Origin: a virus
DNA: 20,005 bases
Reading direction: 5' to 3' (one strand)
Virus record (IMG/VR): IMGVR_UViG_3300005782_000036
Span: 1 to 20,005 of that record
Made by a program: the position numbers and the translations under genes
Shown: positions 7,147 to 18,463 of the stretch, one piece after another
Numbering within the stretch: position 1 is the first letter of the stretch
How the letters are laid out: each line of letters starts with the position of its first letter
The notes under the pieces: model-generated
The model's database searches: none
Seen by the model: only the letters and a program-made list of their open reading frames with translations
Told to the model about the DNA's origin: nothing

Positions 7147-7647
7147 TTAACGGGATCTCCCTGTGCGCAGAAAACGGCCTGCCATGAATTTTATTTTTTT
7201 CAGCAGCTCGGGATCCTGCTTTCTAAGGTTCGTGGCCACCACTATGAATTTTTTCTTTTTGCCGAACAAGCCGAAAACCCCACCCTTTTTCTTGCCTACG
7301 CCGCGGATCTGCAGGAAATAAGCATGCTTTGCCTCGTTCAGAATCCTTATGGCATTCCCAGCACGCTTGTAAACATATCCTCCTTTCAAGGTTCCCTCAT
7401 CGATCAGCTTGCGCGTTCTACCTCGCTTTTTTTTATATTTGATCGTTTTAGCTTCCAGTCCGGGCCAGGGTGCGCCGGGTGGCCCGCCGCCGGAGACGCT
7501 CTGTCCTGCCGCACTGCGGAAATAGCCCTTATGGGTTTTTACAGCCTCCCTGCCAATCGCCTGTAAGGCCTCCCGCGGATTGAGAGCTCGTTTGCCCACC
7601 CCCTCGAGCCGCTTGATCGCCTTGTCAAATCCTTTTGAAGCCGCCAT
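7147..7647 (-). CDS. Phage virion morphogenesis protein (Mu gpG-like)
   Basis: Encodes 166 residues from ATG 7647. It begins MAASKGFDKAIKRLEGVG, is strongly basic and contains the segments GREAVKTHKGYFRSA, GPPGAPWPGLEAKTIKYK and HAYFLQIRG. These are typical of the phage virion morphogenesis (tail S / Mu gpG) family, which completes the tail end before it joins the head. The ribosome site is AGGAG followed by eight bases, and it is the last unit of a 27-copy heptamer array. An open frame continues upstream through the array to 7926, but that part is only RRQESGV-type repeat peptide and is not considered native. Neighbours are the DUF1320 and gp37-like genes, as in Mu-type phages. Confidence 0.85.
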   Translation of the reverse strand: MAASKGFDKAIKRLEGVGKRALNPREALQAIGREAVKTHKGYFRSAAGQSVSGGGPPGAPWPGLEAKTIKYKKKRGRTRKLIDEGTLKGGYVYKRAGNAIRILNEAKHAYFLQIRGVGKKKGGVFGLFGKKKKFIVVATNLRKQDPELLKKIKFMAGRFLRTGRSR

Positions 7648-7652
7648 TTGTC

Positions 7653-7841
7653 TGACTCCTGACTCCTGTCTCCTGTCTCCTGACTCCTGTCTCCTGTCTC
7701 CTGACTCCTGACTCCTGTCTCCTGTCTCCTGACTCCTGTCTCCTGTCTCCTGACTCCTGACTCCTGTTTCCTGACTCCTGACTCCTGTCTCCTGTCTCCT
7801 GACTCCTGACTCCTGTCTCCTGACTCCTGACTCCTGTCTCC
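7653..7841 (-). repeat. Heptanucleotide tandem array, 27 copies
   Basis: On the plus strand there are exactly 27 contiguous 7-base units, each TGACTCC or TGTCTCC, with a single variant TGTTTCC at 765-771 of the 7000s (7765-7771). On the transcribed minus strand each unit reads GGAGTCA or GGAGACA, so AGGAG recurs every 7 bases. The array ends eight bases from the gpG-like start codon and begins about 10 bases from the stop of the DUF1320 gene. All three minus-strand frames are open through it. Similar heptamer arrays (STRR) are known from cyanobacterial chromosomes. Confidence 0.97.
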
Positions 7842-7849
7842 TGATCCCT

Positions 7850-8326
7850 TCACAATTTATCCAATTTCTTCTTCGTGTATTTTCGCGGATCGTCGTCATC
7901 CAGGTCGTCATCCGTGTCCAGGGCATCGGTCCTATACTGGGCTTCCGGCTCTTTCGCCTGGGCTCCGGATGTGTCCAGCCCCAGGCTCAGCTTGCCGTTC
8001 GAGGCTGCCTGGAGTTTGCTCAGGCAGGCCTTGTACTGTGTGAGCCAGTCGTCACTCACTGCCCGCCGGCGAAGGTATAGATAATAGACCGCCATCTGTG
8101 CGCTCAAACGGTTGATCTCATCCGGCACAGGCGAATATGTGCGCAGACTCGGCCAGCGCCCCAGGAGATAGCTGTCGATCTCACCGTCTGCAGAGGCGAT
8201 CACTTCGTTTAATACATCGATTACTTCAGGACTTAAAATAGTAGCCTGATCGCTTTTGCTCGCTAGCTGGACAATTTCATCTTCCTCTGCCCATCGGGTT
8301 AGATCGCTGATTTCGCTGTACGCCAT
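7850..8326 (-). CDS. DUF1320 family head-tail connector (Mu gp36-like)
   Basis: Encodes 158 residues and begins MAYSEISDLTRWAEEDEIVQ. The opening, followed by ADGEIDSYLLGRWP and a later LSAQMAVYYLYLRRR, is the characteristic pattern of DUF1320 proteins such as Mu gp36. These are thought to form the connector ring between portal and tail. The C-terminus is an acidic D-rich stretch followed by a lysine-rich end. The start lies 6 bases after the stop of the exported-protein gene. The stop overlaps a GTG (GTGA at 7850-7853) that could start translation into the heptamer array. Confidence 0.85.
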   Translation of the reverse strand: MAYSEISDLTRWAEEDEIVQLASKSDQATILSPEVIDVLNEVIASADGEIDSYLLGRWPSLRTYSPVPDEINRLSAQMAVYYLYLRRRAVSDDWLTQYKACLSKLQAASNGKLSLGLDTSGAQAKEPEAQYRTDALDTDDDLDDDDPRKYTKKKLDKL

Positions 8327-10705: not shown

Positions 10706-10738
10706 TTTTATCTCCTGGTAGTCAAATCAATTTCGTAA
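10701..10738 (-). promoter_or_regulatory. Duplicated translation leader, capsid copy
   Basis: The 38 bases from the start codon region upstream (with the ribosome site AGGAGATAAAAATG) match 36 of 38 bases of 11256-11293, which precedes the decoration-like gene. The two differences are adjacent to the ribosome site. Confidence 0.85.
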
Positions 10739-10740
10739 TT

Positions 10741-10852
10741 TCCCCCTTACCAAAGAGGGACACAGGGAGTTGTATTCCCCATTCCGTAGGGACACGGCGC
10801 CGCCGTGTCCGTGTGTCTGTCTCCCTCTTGCCAAAGGGGGATATAGGGAGTT
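10741..10852 (+). repeat. R4-R2-R4 repeat cluster
   Basis: R4 at 10741-10773 (CCCCCTTACCAAAGAGGG...GGGAGTTGT), R2 at 10786-10810 (GTAGGGACACGGCGCCG...) and a second, more degenerate R4 at 10822-10852 together fill the gap between the decoration-like gene and the capsid gene. No open frame of interest is present. Confidence 0.85.
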
Positions 10853-15071: not shown

Positions 15072-15087
15072 TTACCCTCAAATTATT

Positions 15088-15375
15088 TTATTTATAAGGC
15101 CCTAAAATCTCGGCGTTACTTGCATAAGCTTTGTAATAGAGTTTTGCAGATGGTAGAATCAAAATCATTCTCCCATCTTGTAATTCAATCTGTCCAGACA
15201 TTCTCCCATGCCCGCAACAACTTCCTCGCATATCTATTCCGCCCTCCTGCAAAGCTCTCACTATCGGAGCAATGCATGAATCTATTCCCATTTCCCGCCA
15301 TTTCTCTTTTCCAGGCGAACTAAGATCAGCTGGGATTTTAACTTTTACTGGAGTAAAATTTCCTGGTTTACACAT
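15088..15375 (-). CDS. Small phage protein with CCGHG motif, function unknown
   Basis: Encodes 95 residues. The core IDSCIAPIVRALQEGG, then GSCCGHGRMSGQIELQDGR, is a recurring pattern in small phage proteins I recognise from many phage and prophage genomes, but no function has been assigned. The paired cysteines and histidine could bind metal. No membrane segment is present. It lies between terL (14 bases away) and the portal gene (16 bases away), in the packaging module, so a link to packaging or early head assembly is possible. The ribosome site is weak, which suggests coupled translation. Confidence 0.72.
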   Translation of the reverse strand: MCKPGNFTPVKVKIPADLSSPGKEKWREMGIDSCIAPIVRALQEGGIDMRGSCCGHGRMSGQIELQDGRMILILPSAKLYYKAYASNAEILGPYK

Positions 15376-15389
15376 TCGATTATTTTATT

Positions 15390-17123
15390 TTAGCCGAATA
15401 CTTTGCTGAGTGATTCTTTCGTGGTACGGGGTTCTGCTCCCCGGAAATCCTCAGGGCTGAACGTTCCGTAGCCGGCTAATTCCTCCGCGATCCTGGCACT
15501 GTTGGCTGCCATGCCGAAATGGTTCGGCACGTTAGTCTTGTAAACCCTCGCCTTTACACCGCTGGCCCGCTCGATAGTATCCGCTGTCAGTTGTTTCAGA
15601 TGCGACCTGAACTCCTCGATCGATACGAGCTGTTCGCCCTGGTGAATCTTCATGGCCGGGATCTCGATTGCGTGGTTTGCAAATTCTCCGGTTGTATCAT
15701 CCAGGCTCTCAGTCCTGTCCCTGTGTACGACATTAACCTCTTTCTCGTACATCCCCTCGGTTGTCAGCTTCTGGCTTTCCTTGAAATACTGGAGAAAGCC
15801 CCTGGCACGCAGGCCGGCTTTCAGCAGGCCCAGGATAATGTCTTTGGCTTTGGCTTTGTACGGCATCGCATCGATCACGTAAACCGGCGGGCCGAACTCG
15901 AAGGCCAGCTTACCGATGCGGCCCCAATCCTCGGTTGCCTCCATCCAGAGAATCCTCGGCCGGCCCTCATTATTGCGACCGCGGATCACGATATGCAGAG
16001 TATCCCCGACATCTACTCCCATTCCGGTGGCCACTCCTGCATTCGGGGACATCAGGTATTCAGCCTCGCAGTTATCGAGAACCCTGTCCGTGATCGGCTG
16101 GCTCTCTCCGCCATAGGGATAGCCGAGTATCGAGATGGTGAAATTTTTCTTCTCGCTGGACTTTCGCGCACGAAGATATTTTTTCATTATCGCATCGGCG
16201 GGATCCGCCACATGCTCAGGCTTGATCGTTGTATAAAGCTGGCTCAGGTGATAGCCGCGGACATCCCGGCCGGGATATTTCGGCACCCACTCGCCGGCGG
16301 CCATATCGAGTTCAGCGCGGCATTTCAGGCAGCCCCTGTAATATTTCCGTCCCTCGAGCTTACTCTTTTTCCCAGGCGACCTGATAAAGTTCTGCGGGAA
16401 ATCCTCCTCCAGGCAGTTGAAATGCCCGCACACAGGACAGCGCAGCATCCAGAACCGTTGGTCACTCTCCTGAAAACTCTTGTCGATCCCGTAATCCGCA
16501 ATCGACGGCTGGCTCAGCTCGCTCGACCATTGAAGAAACGAATGCAGAATCCGGTCAAATGCGAATTCCTTGTTCTCCTGATTCGCCTCGTCCAGCTCAT
16601 CCAGGATCAGATAGTCTCCATCCACTGTTTTTACCTTGCCCTTGGTCATCATACCGCGCATGAAAATCTTTGACTTTCCAATATTCTTAAGGCCTTTATT
16701 ATAAGCGCCTCCGGTTTCCCTGGCCTCGAGTACCCGCTCCCGCAGGAACTCTGTATTCTGGATCATCGGATCGAGCCGGTCAGCGCCGAACTCCTCCACG
16801 GCATCATCTGTGTGGAAATAGTAAAGCACCTTGAGTTTGTACTGGTCGCATAGCCAGAGGGCTTTCAACACGTGGTAAACACTGATCCCGACCTGGGCCG
16901 CCTTGCGGTAGCGCTCTTCCGGAACGTGCTCCTCGTAGATCTCCCGCAGGTATTCGTGACCTTCCAGAGAAAAGAGCCGGATCTGTCCGCCGGTCTGGAT
17001 CTTGATCTTGTGGTGCGCGATCCAGTCGAGCAGCTCTCTGCGGGTACGTTTCTGGGTCTTGATCCGGATCGTGGACATCACCCGGTCGAGACTGCTGCGT
17101 TTTTTATATCTCGGACTGGTCAT
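15390..17123 (-). CDS. Terminase large subunit, lambda gpA type
   Basis: Encodes 577 residues. It has the gpA-type deviant Walker A RKAAQVGIS (73-81; compare lambda KSARVGYS), Walker B YLILDE (171-176), two zinc-knuckle-like pairs (CPVCGH at 229-232, CLKC at 265-268) and nuclease-domain acidic residues in GVDVGD (Asp371) and VYVIDAMP (Asp418), ending with NHFGMAANSARIAEE. It is the ATPase that packages DNA into the prohead and the nuclease that cuts it. The start at 17123 lacks a clear ribosome site because a cassette has been inserted directly upstream; a second copy of the first eight codons lies at 17935. An alternative start is Met16 (17078). Confidence 0.93.
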   Translation of the reverse strand: MTSPRYKKRSSLDRVMSTIRIKTQKRTRRELLDWIAHHKIKIQTGGQIRLFSLEGHEYLREIYEEHVPEERYRKAAQVGISVYHVLKALWLCDQYKLKVLYYFHTDDAVEEFGADRLDPMIQNTEFLRERVLEARETGGAYNKGLKNIGKSKIFMRGMMTKGKVKTVDGDYLILDELDEANQENKEFAFDRILHSFLQWSSELSQPSIADYGIDKSFQESDQRFWMLRCPVCGHFNCLEEDFPQNFIRSPGKKSKLEGRKYYRGCLKCRAELDMAAGEWVPKYPGRDVRGYHLSQLYTTIKPEHVADPADAIMKKYLRARKSSEKKNFTISILGYPYGGESQPITDRVLDNCEAEYLMSPNAGVATGMGVDVGDTLHIVIRGRNNEGRPRILWMEATEDWGRIGKLAFEFGPPVYVIDAMPYKAKAKDIILGLLKAGLRARGFLQYFKESQKLTTEGMYEKEVNVVHRDRTESLDDTTGEFANHAIEIPAMKIHQGEQLVSIEEFRSHLKQLTADTIERASGVKARVYKTNVPNHFGMAANSARIAEELAGYGTFSPEDFRGAEPRTTKESLSKVFG

Positions 17124-17129
17124 ATTTTT
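17100..17129 (+). repeat. Direct repeat, left copy (contains terL start)
   Basis: This 30-base sequence ending CTCGGACTGGTCATATTTTT recurs at 17912-17941 with one mismatch (TATATC here, TATGTC there). On the minus strand it holds the terL ATG and codons for MTSPRYKK. The two copies bracket the plus-strand cassette. Confidence 0.95.
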
Positions 17130-17142
17130 TTTTAAAAAAGAC

Positions 17143-17171
17143 TTGACAAACCCTAACGCATATGTTATATT
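17143..17171 (+). promoter_or_regulatory. Consensus sigma-70-type promoter of the cassette
   Basis: TTGACA at 17143-17148, 17 bases of spacing, then TATATT at 17166-17171. This is the best promoter match seen in the window and it points away from the phage late genes, into the two plus-strand genes. Confidence 0.85.
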
Positions 17172-17199
17172 TAATTACAATCAATCAAAGGAGGTTCTT

Positions 17200-17571
17200 A
17201 TGACTGCGCCTGTTACTACAAAACAAGCCGCCCAAATATTGGGCTGCAACGCCTCCCGCGTGCGCCAGCTCATTCTATCCGGTCGTTTACATGCGAAAAA
17301 GCATGGCCGGGACTGGCTAATGTCAAAAAATACAATCTTGAAATTCGCCCGGCTGGAACGGAAATCCGGCCGTCCATCTTCAAAACTGGAGGAAACAATG
17401 TTTTATTTTGCCTATTTTGATGATACAAACCAGTCCTGCCGTATCTATCATACTGGTCAAATTTTGCCAAAAAGCAAACACTGGCACCTTTTCGATAGTG
17501 AACAAGATTACAAAAAATTGGTTTCCCGCGTAAAAGAGATCAATCCCGATGCAAAAATCGAAGTTCTATAA
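17200..17571 (+). CDS. HTH (excisionase/MerR-like) DNA-binding protein, cassette gene 1
   Basis: Encodes 123 residues from ATG 17200, which has AAAGGAGG five bases upstream. Residues 6-50 (TTKQAAQILGCNASRVRQLI, then SGRLHAKKHGRDWLMSKNTI) form a winged helix-turn-helix of the excisionase/HTH_17 type. The C-terminal half, from Met67 (MFYFAYFDDTNQSCRIYHTG), is not recognised. That Met has its own GGAGG at 17388-17392, five bases upstream, so a separate 57-residue product is possible. It is one of only two genes read on the plus strand and is driven by a strong promoter. It may regulate its own cassette or assist DNA rearrangement; neither is shown. Confidence 0.85.
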   Translation: MTAPVTTKQAAQILGCNASRVRQLILSGRLHAKKHGRDWLMSKNTILKFARLERKSGRPSSKLEETMFYFAYFDDTNQSCRIYHTGQILPKSKHWHLFDSEQDYKKLVSRVKEINPDAKIEVL

Positions 17572-17620
17572 TTATCAATCATTCACGCTGATCTCAGTCA
17601 GCCAAATAAAGGAGTGAATA

Positions 17621-17851
17621 ATGATCGAGATTAAAACCAAGTCTTACAAGGCCGTAAATCCTCGCGGCGATTTGACTCGCGGGGAGTTCGGCGAAGTTGT
17701 CCGTAACGTCCATGTGGTTACGGACACAAACGGCGAATATGGCTCTCCGTCTATTGGAGATATCCTTGTTTGGGATTCCACTTTTGGCTGGCTACCTGGT
17801 GATGATTGGGCCAGCAAATGGGCCATCAAATTCGCCGATAGTCTCCTTTAA
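17621..17851 (+). CDS. Unknown 76-residue protein, cassette gene 2
   Basis: Encodes 76 residues from ATG 17621, with AAAGGAG at 17608-17614. The sequence (MIEIKTKSYKAVNPRGDLTR to KWAIKFADSLL) is soluble, W-rich toward the end (LVWDSTFGWLPGDDWASKW) and matches no family I know. It follows cassette gene 1 by 49 bases, has no separate promoter and is followed by a strong terminator, so both genes form one small operon. Its small size and cassette setting are typical of phage accessory (moron) genes. Confidence 0.78.
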   Translation: MIEIKTKSYKAVNPRGDLTRGEFGEVVRNVHVVTDTNGEYGSPSIGDILVWDSTFGWLPGDDWASKWAIKFADSLL

Positions 17852-17888
17852 CTTTCAAACATCCGCCGCGCTGATTCTATCAGCCTAT

Positions 17889-17917
17889 AGCCCCGGCCTG
17901 AAAACCGGGGCTTTTTT
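17889..17917 (+). terminator. Rho-independent terminator of the cassette
   Basis: AGCCCCGG (17889-17896), loop CCTGAAAA, CCGGGGCT (17905-17912), then a run of six T to 17917. The stem is perfect. The T run belongs to the right direct repeat. In the minus direction no T run follows, so late transcription toward terL should pass. Confidence 0.95.
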
Positions 17918-17941
17918 ATGTCTCGGACTGGTCATATTTTT
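17912..17941 (+). repeat. Direct repeat, right copy (remnant of terL start)
   Basis: Matches 17100-17129 at 29 of 30 positions. On the minus strand it encodes a relic MTSPRHKK that then reads into APVFRPGL and a stop. A weak AGGG lies upstream of this relic ATG. Confidence 0.95.
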
Positions 17942-17998: not shown

Positions 17999-18028
17999 TT
18001 GTACGCTCCACGGCGCGTTGTGTCCCTA
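17999..18028 (+). repeat. Degenerate R2 palindrome at the end of the terS-like gene
   Basis: Read on the minus strand it is GTAGGGACACAACGCGCCG followed by TGGAGCGTAC, an R2 element with several changes and in the opposite orientation to the other copies. The TAG within its leading GTAGGG is the stop codon of the terS-like gene. Confidence 0.72.
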
Positions 18029-18463
18029 CGGCGATTTCTCTTTCAGGCGTTCCCCGAGCTCGGAAAGCACCTCCGGATCCTCGAACAGCTCCCGGAATTG
18101 TTTCATTTCCTTTAACGTTTCCAGGAGGATCTCTGCGTCCTCCACGTAAATCAATCGCTCGCGAACTGCTTTTGTCTTCTGAAATTCTTTAAGTGTATTG
18201 ACAAGGCCGTGTATTTTTTGAGCGTTTATTTCCTTTCCTTCCTCTTCTTTCAGTTCATCATCGATCAGCCTGCAGAGCAGTCTGCCGAGCTTCTCCTGCA
18301 GGTTCATGTTGTTGTCGCGCTGCTGCTCCCAGTTGCCGTCCTTTCGCCATCTATAAAATGTTTTTTTTGGCACTTTCGTTCTGTCGCAGACTTCCTCTAT
18401 AAACAGCAGCTCATCTATATACAGCCGCTCGCATTCGGCTTTCAGTTCTGAGTCGTGGGCCAT
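18026..18463 (-). CDS. Putative terminase small subunit (HTH protein, Mu gp27 / DUF1804-like position)
   Basis: Encodes 145 residues. Residues 22-46 (IEEVCDRTKVPKKTFYRWRK) form a helix-turn-helix of the kind found at the N-terminus of phage small terminases and DUF1804 proteins. The rest is helical and charged, as expected for an oligomerising region. The start MAHDSELKAECERLYIDELL is close in style to DUF1804. It would recognise phage DNA and bring the large subunit to it. Its stop codon is supplied by an R2 repeat. It is separated from terL by the inserted cassette. Confidence 0.72.
   Translation of the reverse strand: MAHDSELKAECERLYIDELLFIEEVCDRTKVPKKTFYRWRKDGNWEQQRDNNMNLQEKLGRLLCRLIDDELKEEEGKEINAQKIHGLVNTLKEFQKTKAVRERLIYVEDAEILLETLKEMKQFRELFEDPEVLSELGERLKEKSP

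Follow-up and report, generated by a model that had tools for sequence, protein, structure and literature searches.

A putative moron cassette, bracketed by a duplicated terL start, between the terminase genes of a Mu-like phage

The window examined, a linear viral fragment of 20,005 bases, carries the late region of a Mu-like phage on its minus strand, with genes for a holin, several small proteins, terS, terL, a Mu-type portal protein, and a Mu F-like head protein, together with further late genes. The cassette described here occupies the gap that separates terS (18026–18463, minus strand), a DUF1804-like gene with a match to that family and a 50% identical counterpart in the related contig L013, from terL (15390–17123, minus strand), which encodes a Mu-like/GpA-type large terminase (phrog_675, E value 1e-115). 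The inserted segment (17130–17911) was delimited by its absence from the related contigs L013, L016, and L092 and by its composition, with a GC content of 0.446 versus 0.544 for terL and 0.482 for terS. It is read from the plus strand, opposed to the late operon, and comprises, in order, a promoter, a gene for an HTH_17 protein (gene 1, 17200–17571; 123 aa), a gene for a 76-aa protein (gene 2, 17621–17851), and a terminator. The promoter (17143–17171) is of the sigma-70 type, TTGACA-17-TATATT with an extended -10 element (TG), and matches the consensus at 11 of 12 bases. Strong ribosome sites precede gene 1 (-12.2 kcal/mol) and gene 2 (-8.2 kcal/mol). The terminator hairpin (17889–17912) runs into the T tail TTTTTTAT, giving a feature of 17889–17919 with the same tail in L004, a contig considered below. 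The original prediction of a plus-strand operon with a promoter, two genes with strong ribosome sites, and a terminator inside a minus-strand late operon was confirmed at the level of sequence.

The N-terminal part of the gene 1 protein contains an Xis/MerR-like HTH_17 domain (Pfam, 1.9e-9, above the cut-off) with a PHROG excisionase match at 5e-6 and a score against TIGR01764 just below that model's cut-off; the C-terminal stretch of ~60 aa is without relatives. Searches of viral contigs, plasmids, and 40 related records returned no informative relatives of gene 1, annotated phages gave matches at the level of the HTH only, and a search of defense families matched nothing but the HTH part. 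Xis-like and HTH_17 domains are frequent in regulators. The earlier description of gene 1 as an excisionase-like HTH protein consequently holds for the domain, whereas a role as an excisionase is doubtful because such HTHs are so common in regulators. Gene 2 belongs to no family and had no relatives in annotated phages, plasmids, or genome contigs, with a 96% identical protein encoded in L004. Predicted structures of the two cassette proteins (pLDDT 47 and 42) were too poor for a structure search.

L004 is a contig of an unrelated phage with a Terminase_2-type terS. Its similarity to the window covers a predicted exchange unit of hairpin, gene 2, and hairpin (17584–17893, plus strand; 92% DNA identity), with the upstream hairpin at 17585–17603 and the downstream hairpin at 17868–17885, the latter differing from the upstream hairpin of L004 in its first base only. 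Beyond the hairpins, nothing but the terminator tail GGGCTTTTTTAT is similar. The unit in L004 is the last in a four-gene plus-strand cassette that lies amid minus-strand genes, adjoins terS/terL, and has a promoter-like TTGACT-17-TATATT; the terL-start repeat of the window is not found with it. By sequence comparison, gene 2 and its flanking hairpins thus form a unit that is also present in an unrelated phage. Seven of the 10 codons that differ between the two copies of gene 2 are changed synonymously, which was counted as support for coding constraint. Across the four hairpins of the window and L004, every stem pair is kept, two of them by double change; this compensation was equaled in 35 of 500 shuffles with four sequences only, and the compensated pairs are only suggestive of conserved stems. 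An exact search of viral contigs for the gene-2 hairpin returned L004 only, and the hairpin is not repeated ahead of many genes in one genome but confined to the surroundings of gene 2 in two phages. A looser pattern combined with TATAGCC retrieved 13 more contigs, none with paired stem context, as expected by chance, and the hairpin was rejected as a wider recombination site.

The cassette is bracketed by direct repeats at 17100–17129 and 17912–17941, which are identical at 29 of 30 bases and contain 21 consecutive exact matches, TCTCGGACTGGTCATATTTTT. The left copy spans the intact start of terL, with the ATG at 17123 (minus strand), seven further codons, and the 6 nt that precede the ATG, and encodes MTSPRYKK. 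The right copy holds a relic terL start (MTSPRHKK...) together with the original upstream sequence and a moderate ribosome site, and its first 8 bases are at the same time the T tail of the terminator, so the securely duplicated target measures ~22 nt. The flanks had been predicted to match at 29 of 30 bases, with the terL ATG in both and a relic start on the far side, and comparison bore this out; the extent given as the ATG plus eight codons is corrected here to the ATG plus seven further codons. No repeat of this kind is expected in shuffled sequence, and none of 5000 simulated flanks reached 21 nt. The core TCTCGGACTGGTCATATTTTT was found nowhere else in the window, even when 3 mismatches were allowed, and the repeat was absent from the viral contigs searched except for the terL start of the same phage. 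It is therefore linked to the cassette ends and is not, as the original prediction had weighed against its own reading, a dispersed sequence. When 122 TerL-bearing contigs were scanned for exact recurrence of their terL start region within 3 kb upstream, the window gave 21 nt and all others at most 14 nt. Exact repeat pairs of at least 16 nt spaced 250–3000 bp apart numbered only 28 in 1.29 Mb of related loci (the window was excluded by the filter), and such repeats are hence no habit of these phages.

The cassette is an insertion between terS and terL because relatives have these genes adjacent and because the terL-start repeat is unique among the 122 contigs. Among relatives in which the whole junction is present, L013 is the closest (TerL 65% identical, terS 50%, small genes in the same order), with terS and terL 101 bp apart and terL starting behind GGAGG; the spacing is 33 bp in L016 (TerL 44% identical), and the two genes overlap in L092 (41%). 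These empty sites support the original claim that recombination delivered a cassette to the 5' end of terL, and they provide the relatives with adjacent terS and terL that had been anticipated. The opposite case, in which all homologous phages carry the genes at this place without repeats, does not apply, the cassette being absent from all three. A second whole copy of the cassette in other phages, which had also been envisaged, was not found, and the gene-2 unit alone recurs, in L004. None of the empty sites found belongs to a phage whose TerL is more than 65% identical, and the pre-insertion sequence is for that reason inferred only. A contig from another sample (L011; 3300011118) matches 7.4 kb of the window at 99.8% identity, continues across the left repeat and 11 nt into the cassette, and ends at its position 8249, equivalent to 17140 in the window and just before the cassette promoter. 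As L011 runs past the left repeat, the left junction has been seen twice, and the right junction is spanned by a single assembly. That the right junction is an artefact in which two variants were joined via the common 21-nt word would agree with this single assembly and with the end of L011 just inside the cassette. Against it stand the presence of the left junction in a second contig, the one-base difference between the two repeat copies, and the exact joining of the right copy at the terminator tail, and an artefact is judged highly improbable. As a separate observation, the end point of L011 near the promoter may mark variation of the cassette in that population.

Consequences for terL can be read from its start signals. 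Ahead of the intact ATG there is no ribosome site (-0.2 kcal/mol), and the relic start retains a moderate one (-5.6 kcal/mol) with the original upstream sequence; nearly all other genes of the window have ribosome sites of -5 to -12 kcal/mol. An opposing transcription unit now lies directly upstream of the intact gene. The earlier statement that the cassette rebuilt terL is accordingly right for the codons, whereas the ribosome-binding site was left behind with the relic start. With the codons kept and this site lost, TerL production would be less efficient, and its output was probably reduced by the insertion. TerL is probably still made because its frame is intact and the TerL of L013 begins at a similar place. 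Because terL, with the cassette in place, lacks a ribosome site and is separated from terS by transcription in the opposite direction, the cassette might also be conceived as an excisable packaging brake. Recombination between the repeats, with the Xis-like gene 1 assisting, would then excise 812 bp and leave one terL start preceded by the upstream sequence it had originally, and packaging capacity would depend on this excision. This reading is considered extremely improbable.

Several routes of arrival were weighed against these features. If the cassette were a site-specific integrative element, the repeats would be attL/attR cores, gene 1 an excisionase, and the integrase would act in trans. 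The Xis-like HTH, the rebuilt target reading frame, and a repeat length within the range of tyrosine-recombinase cores are in keeping with this. It is nevertheless decidedly improbable, since neither cassette gene is an integrase and no integrase lies in the 20 kb, as had been predicted; the core occurs only at the terL start of the same phage, with no other integration site and no second copy; the repeat lacks a core-plus-inverted-arm structure; and the gene-2 unit of L004 is without the repeat of the window. With no integrase, known transposase, or second copy, the earlier likening of the repeat to the attachment core of a mobile unit is unsupported. Integron attC sites and CRISPR-like repeat duplication were also rejected, as there were no attC motifs and neither cas genes nor a repeat array.

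That gene 1 is the transposase of an ultra-small transposon whose target duplication is unusually long is very unlikely. The cassette resembles the mycobacteriophage mobile elements known as MPMEs in being a tiny insert near the 5' end of a gene, as is MPME1 of phage Hope (PMC3029335), and the 123 aa of gene 1 equal the MPME reading frame in size (PMC4351075); its ends are A/T-rich (AAAAAAG...CTTTTTT). MPMEs, however, have inverted repeats near their ends, add 6 bp rather than a long direct repeat, and occur in several copies (PMC3029335, PMC4351075). Apart from the A/T run, the ends of the cassette show no inverted repeats, and the cassette has neither a 6-bp addition nor further copies, gene 1 being found in no other viral contig and the gene-2 unit recurring once, and gene 1 has no catalytic-domain match. 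Transfer from a partner phage that carried the cassette beside a near-identical terL start, with two copies left by unequal crossover or Campbell-type insertion via 21–30 nt of homology, is unlikely. The 21-nt exact stretch could be used by homologous recombination, and two parents would account for the single base by which the copies differ. The repeat was nonetheless found in no other contig save at the terL start of the same phage, 21–30 nt is short for RecA-type recombination, and the proposal moves the origin one step back.

The reading given about an even chance is that of an accessory, or moron, cassette of a Mu-like phage that is expressed in the prophage and was copied in by illegitimate recombination. 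The assignment to the morons follows from the empty gap in relatives, the promoter and terminator, and the recurrence of the gene-2 unit in an unrelated phage. The sequence agrees with moron status in that the cassette is absent where the flanking genes adjoin, has its own promoter and terminator, and differs in composition, and the most fitting name for it is a moron whose insertion footprint can still be read. Its genes are predicted to be made in the quiet prophage because the promoter is independent of late activation. Gene 1 would then supply a putative regulator and gene 2 a product putatively acting on the host or on superinfecting phage, which is the weakest step. For the insertion itself, it is proposed that a strand being synthesized over the start of terL changed template to the cassette at the short A/T stretch ATTTTT, was extended along the cassette as far as the terminator tail TTTTTTAT, and re-annealed by this tail to the matching TTTTTTAT of terL codons 6–8, ~22 nt behind the point of departure. 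The stretch between the two microhomologies would be copied twice, and a direct repeat would result. ATTTTT is indeed present as microhomology at the left junction. The terminator tail GGGCTTTTTTAT, identical in L004, has 8 nt in common with terL codons 6–8, which read TTTTTTAT on the plus strand, and within the 3-kb terL–terS stretch this 8-mer occurs only at the two repeat copies. The sole repeat mismatch directly follows TTTTTTAT, as expected for a base supplied by the cassette, with the caveat that single-base mismatches also arise through mutation. A further caveat is that the donor flanks are represented by the L004 terminator tail and that T tails are common by function. We infer that microhomology-primed illegitimate recombination is the simplest reading that uses all of the facts.

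A second gene of accessory appearance lies at 15088–15375 (minus strand; 95 aa, GC 0.41, no ribosome site) between terL and the portal gene and is absent from L003 and L013. An exact 12-bp direct repeat, ATTATTTTATTT, flanks it at 15082–15093 and 15379–15390 and was matched in 10 of 5000 simulations. This gene is a possible second footprinted insertion and hints that the phage lineage repeatedly gains genes by such repeat-leaving insertion. In two other TerL-bearing phages, small accessory-looking genes lie between exact direct repeats of 16–17 nt, at 2013–2028 and 2417–2432 in L037 and at 498–514 and 847–863 in L078, and these are possibly the same kind of footprint.

Other repeats were noted in the window. 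Three families of dispersed palindromes, GTAGGGGCGGTTCGCGAACCGCCC (2318, 11386, 12691, and 19937), GTAGGGACACGGCG... (5573, 9702, 10774, and 18000–18034), and TCCCCCTT..AAAGGGGGACACAGGGGG (6670, 9186, 10734, 11459, and 12139), lie mostly in intergenic gaps, and one copy falls where terS ends (3'). A segment of about 50 bp containing one palindrome (near 10734–10784) is missing in the near relative L003, so these repeats come and go in the lineage. A heptamer array of CTGACTC/CTGTCTC (7645–7845) encodes an RRQESGV/RSQETGD-like N-terminal extension of the 7147–7926 reading frame, and 47-bp A/T-rich tandem repeats, AAAACTTTTTTCCAAAATCG..., occupy 1989–2176 between two late genes.

The route by which phage genomes acquire morons has yet to be explained, and the 30-letter duplicate of the terL start is a rarely seen footprint of how extra genes arrive. 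Both junctions can be read here: a gene start is duplicated, 8 nt are shared at the junction, and a mobile gene unit is bounded by hairpins. The short hairpins adjoining gene 2 recall the ESAS of cluster K mycobacteriophages, a short hairpin beside gene start signals (PMC3203893), and, going by the account relayed in PMC4503421, the PeSLs of T4-like phages, a stem-loop linked to module shuffling. Compared with these elements as so described, the gene-2 hairpin differs in sequence, lies at two loci only and on both sides of one gene, and has no promoter in the repeat. Morons were defined, with Mu-like examples, in PMC4378225, where the flanks of accessory regions bore no sign of a recombinase target and the mechanism of acquisition was called "mysterious." The cassette shares with them its absence in relatives, its own promoter and terminator, its deviating composition, and its position between genes that are adjacent in relatives; unlike them, it has two genes, opposes the late operon, and has a clear junction footprint. 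Accessory genes bracketed by direct repeats have already been published for cluster O mycobacteriophages (PMC4351075). Corndog gene 14 encodes an Xis-like protein and lies between 17-bp direct repeats, and YungJamal gene 60 is on the opposite strand between imperfect 24-bp direct repeats at a two-gene junction; in both cases the repeat is single in sister phages. The window matches both in the bracketing repeats, the former in its Xis-like protein, and the latter in its orientation, whereas it contains two genes rather than one, has a promoter and terminator, shows visible microhomology, and is flanked by a repeat that is both longer and better matched (29/30). It is a further, well preserved case, and together with the cluster O genes it suggests a rule by which accessory genes, some with an Xis-like HTH, come to lie between direct copies of a neighboring-gene boundary.
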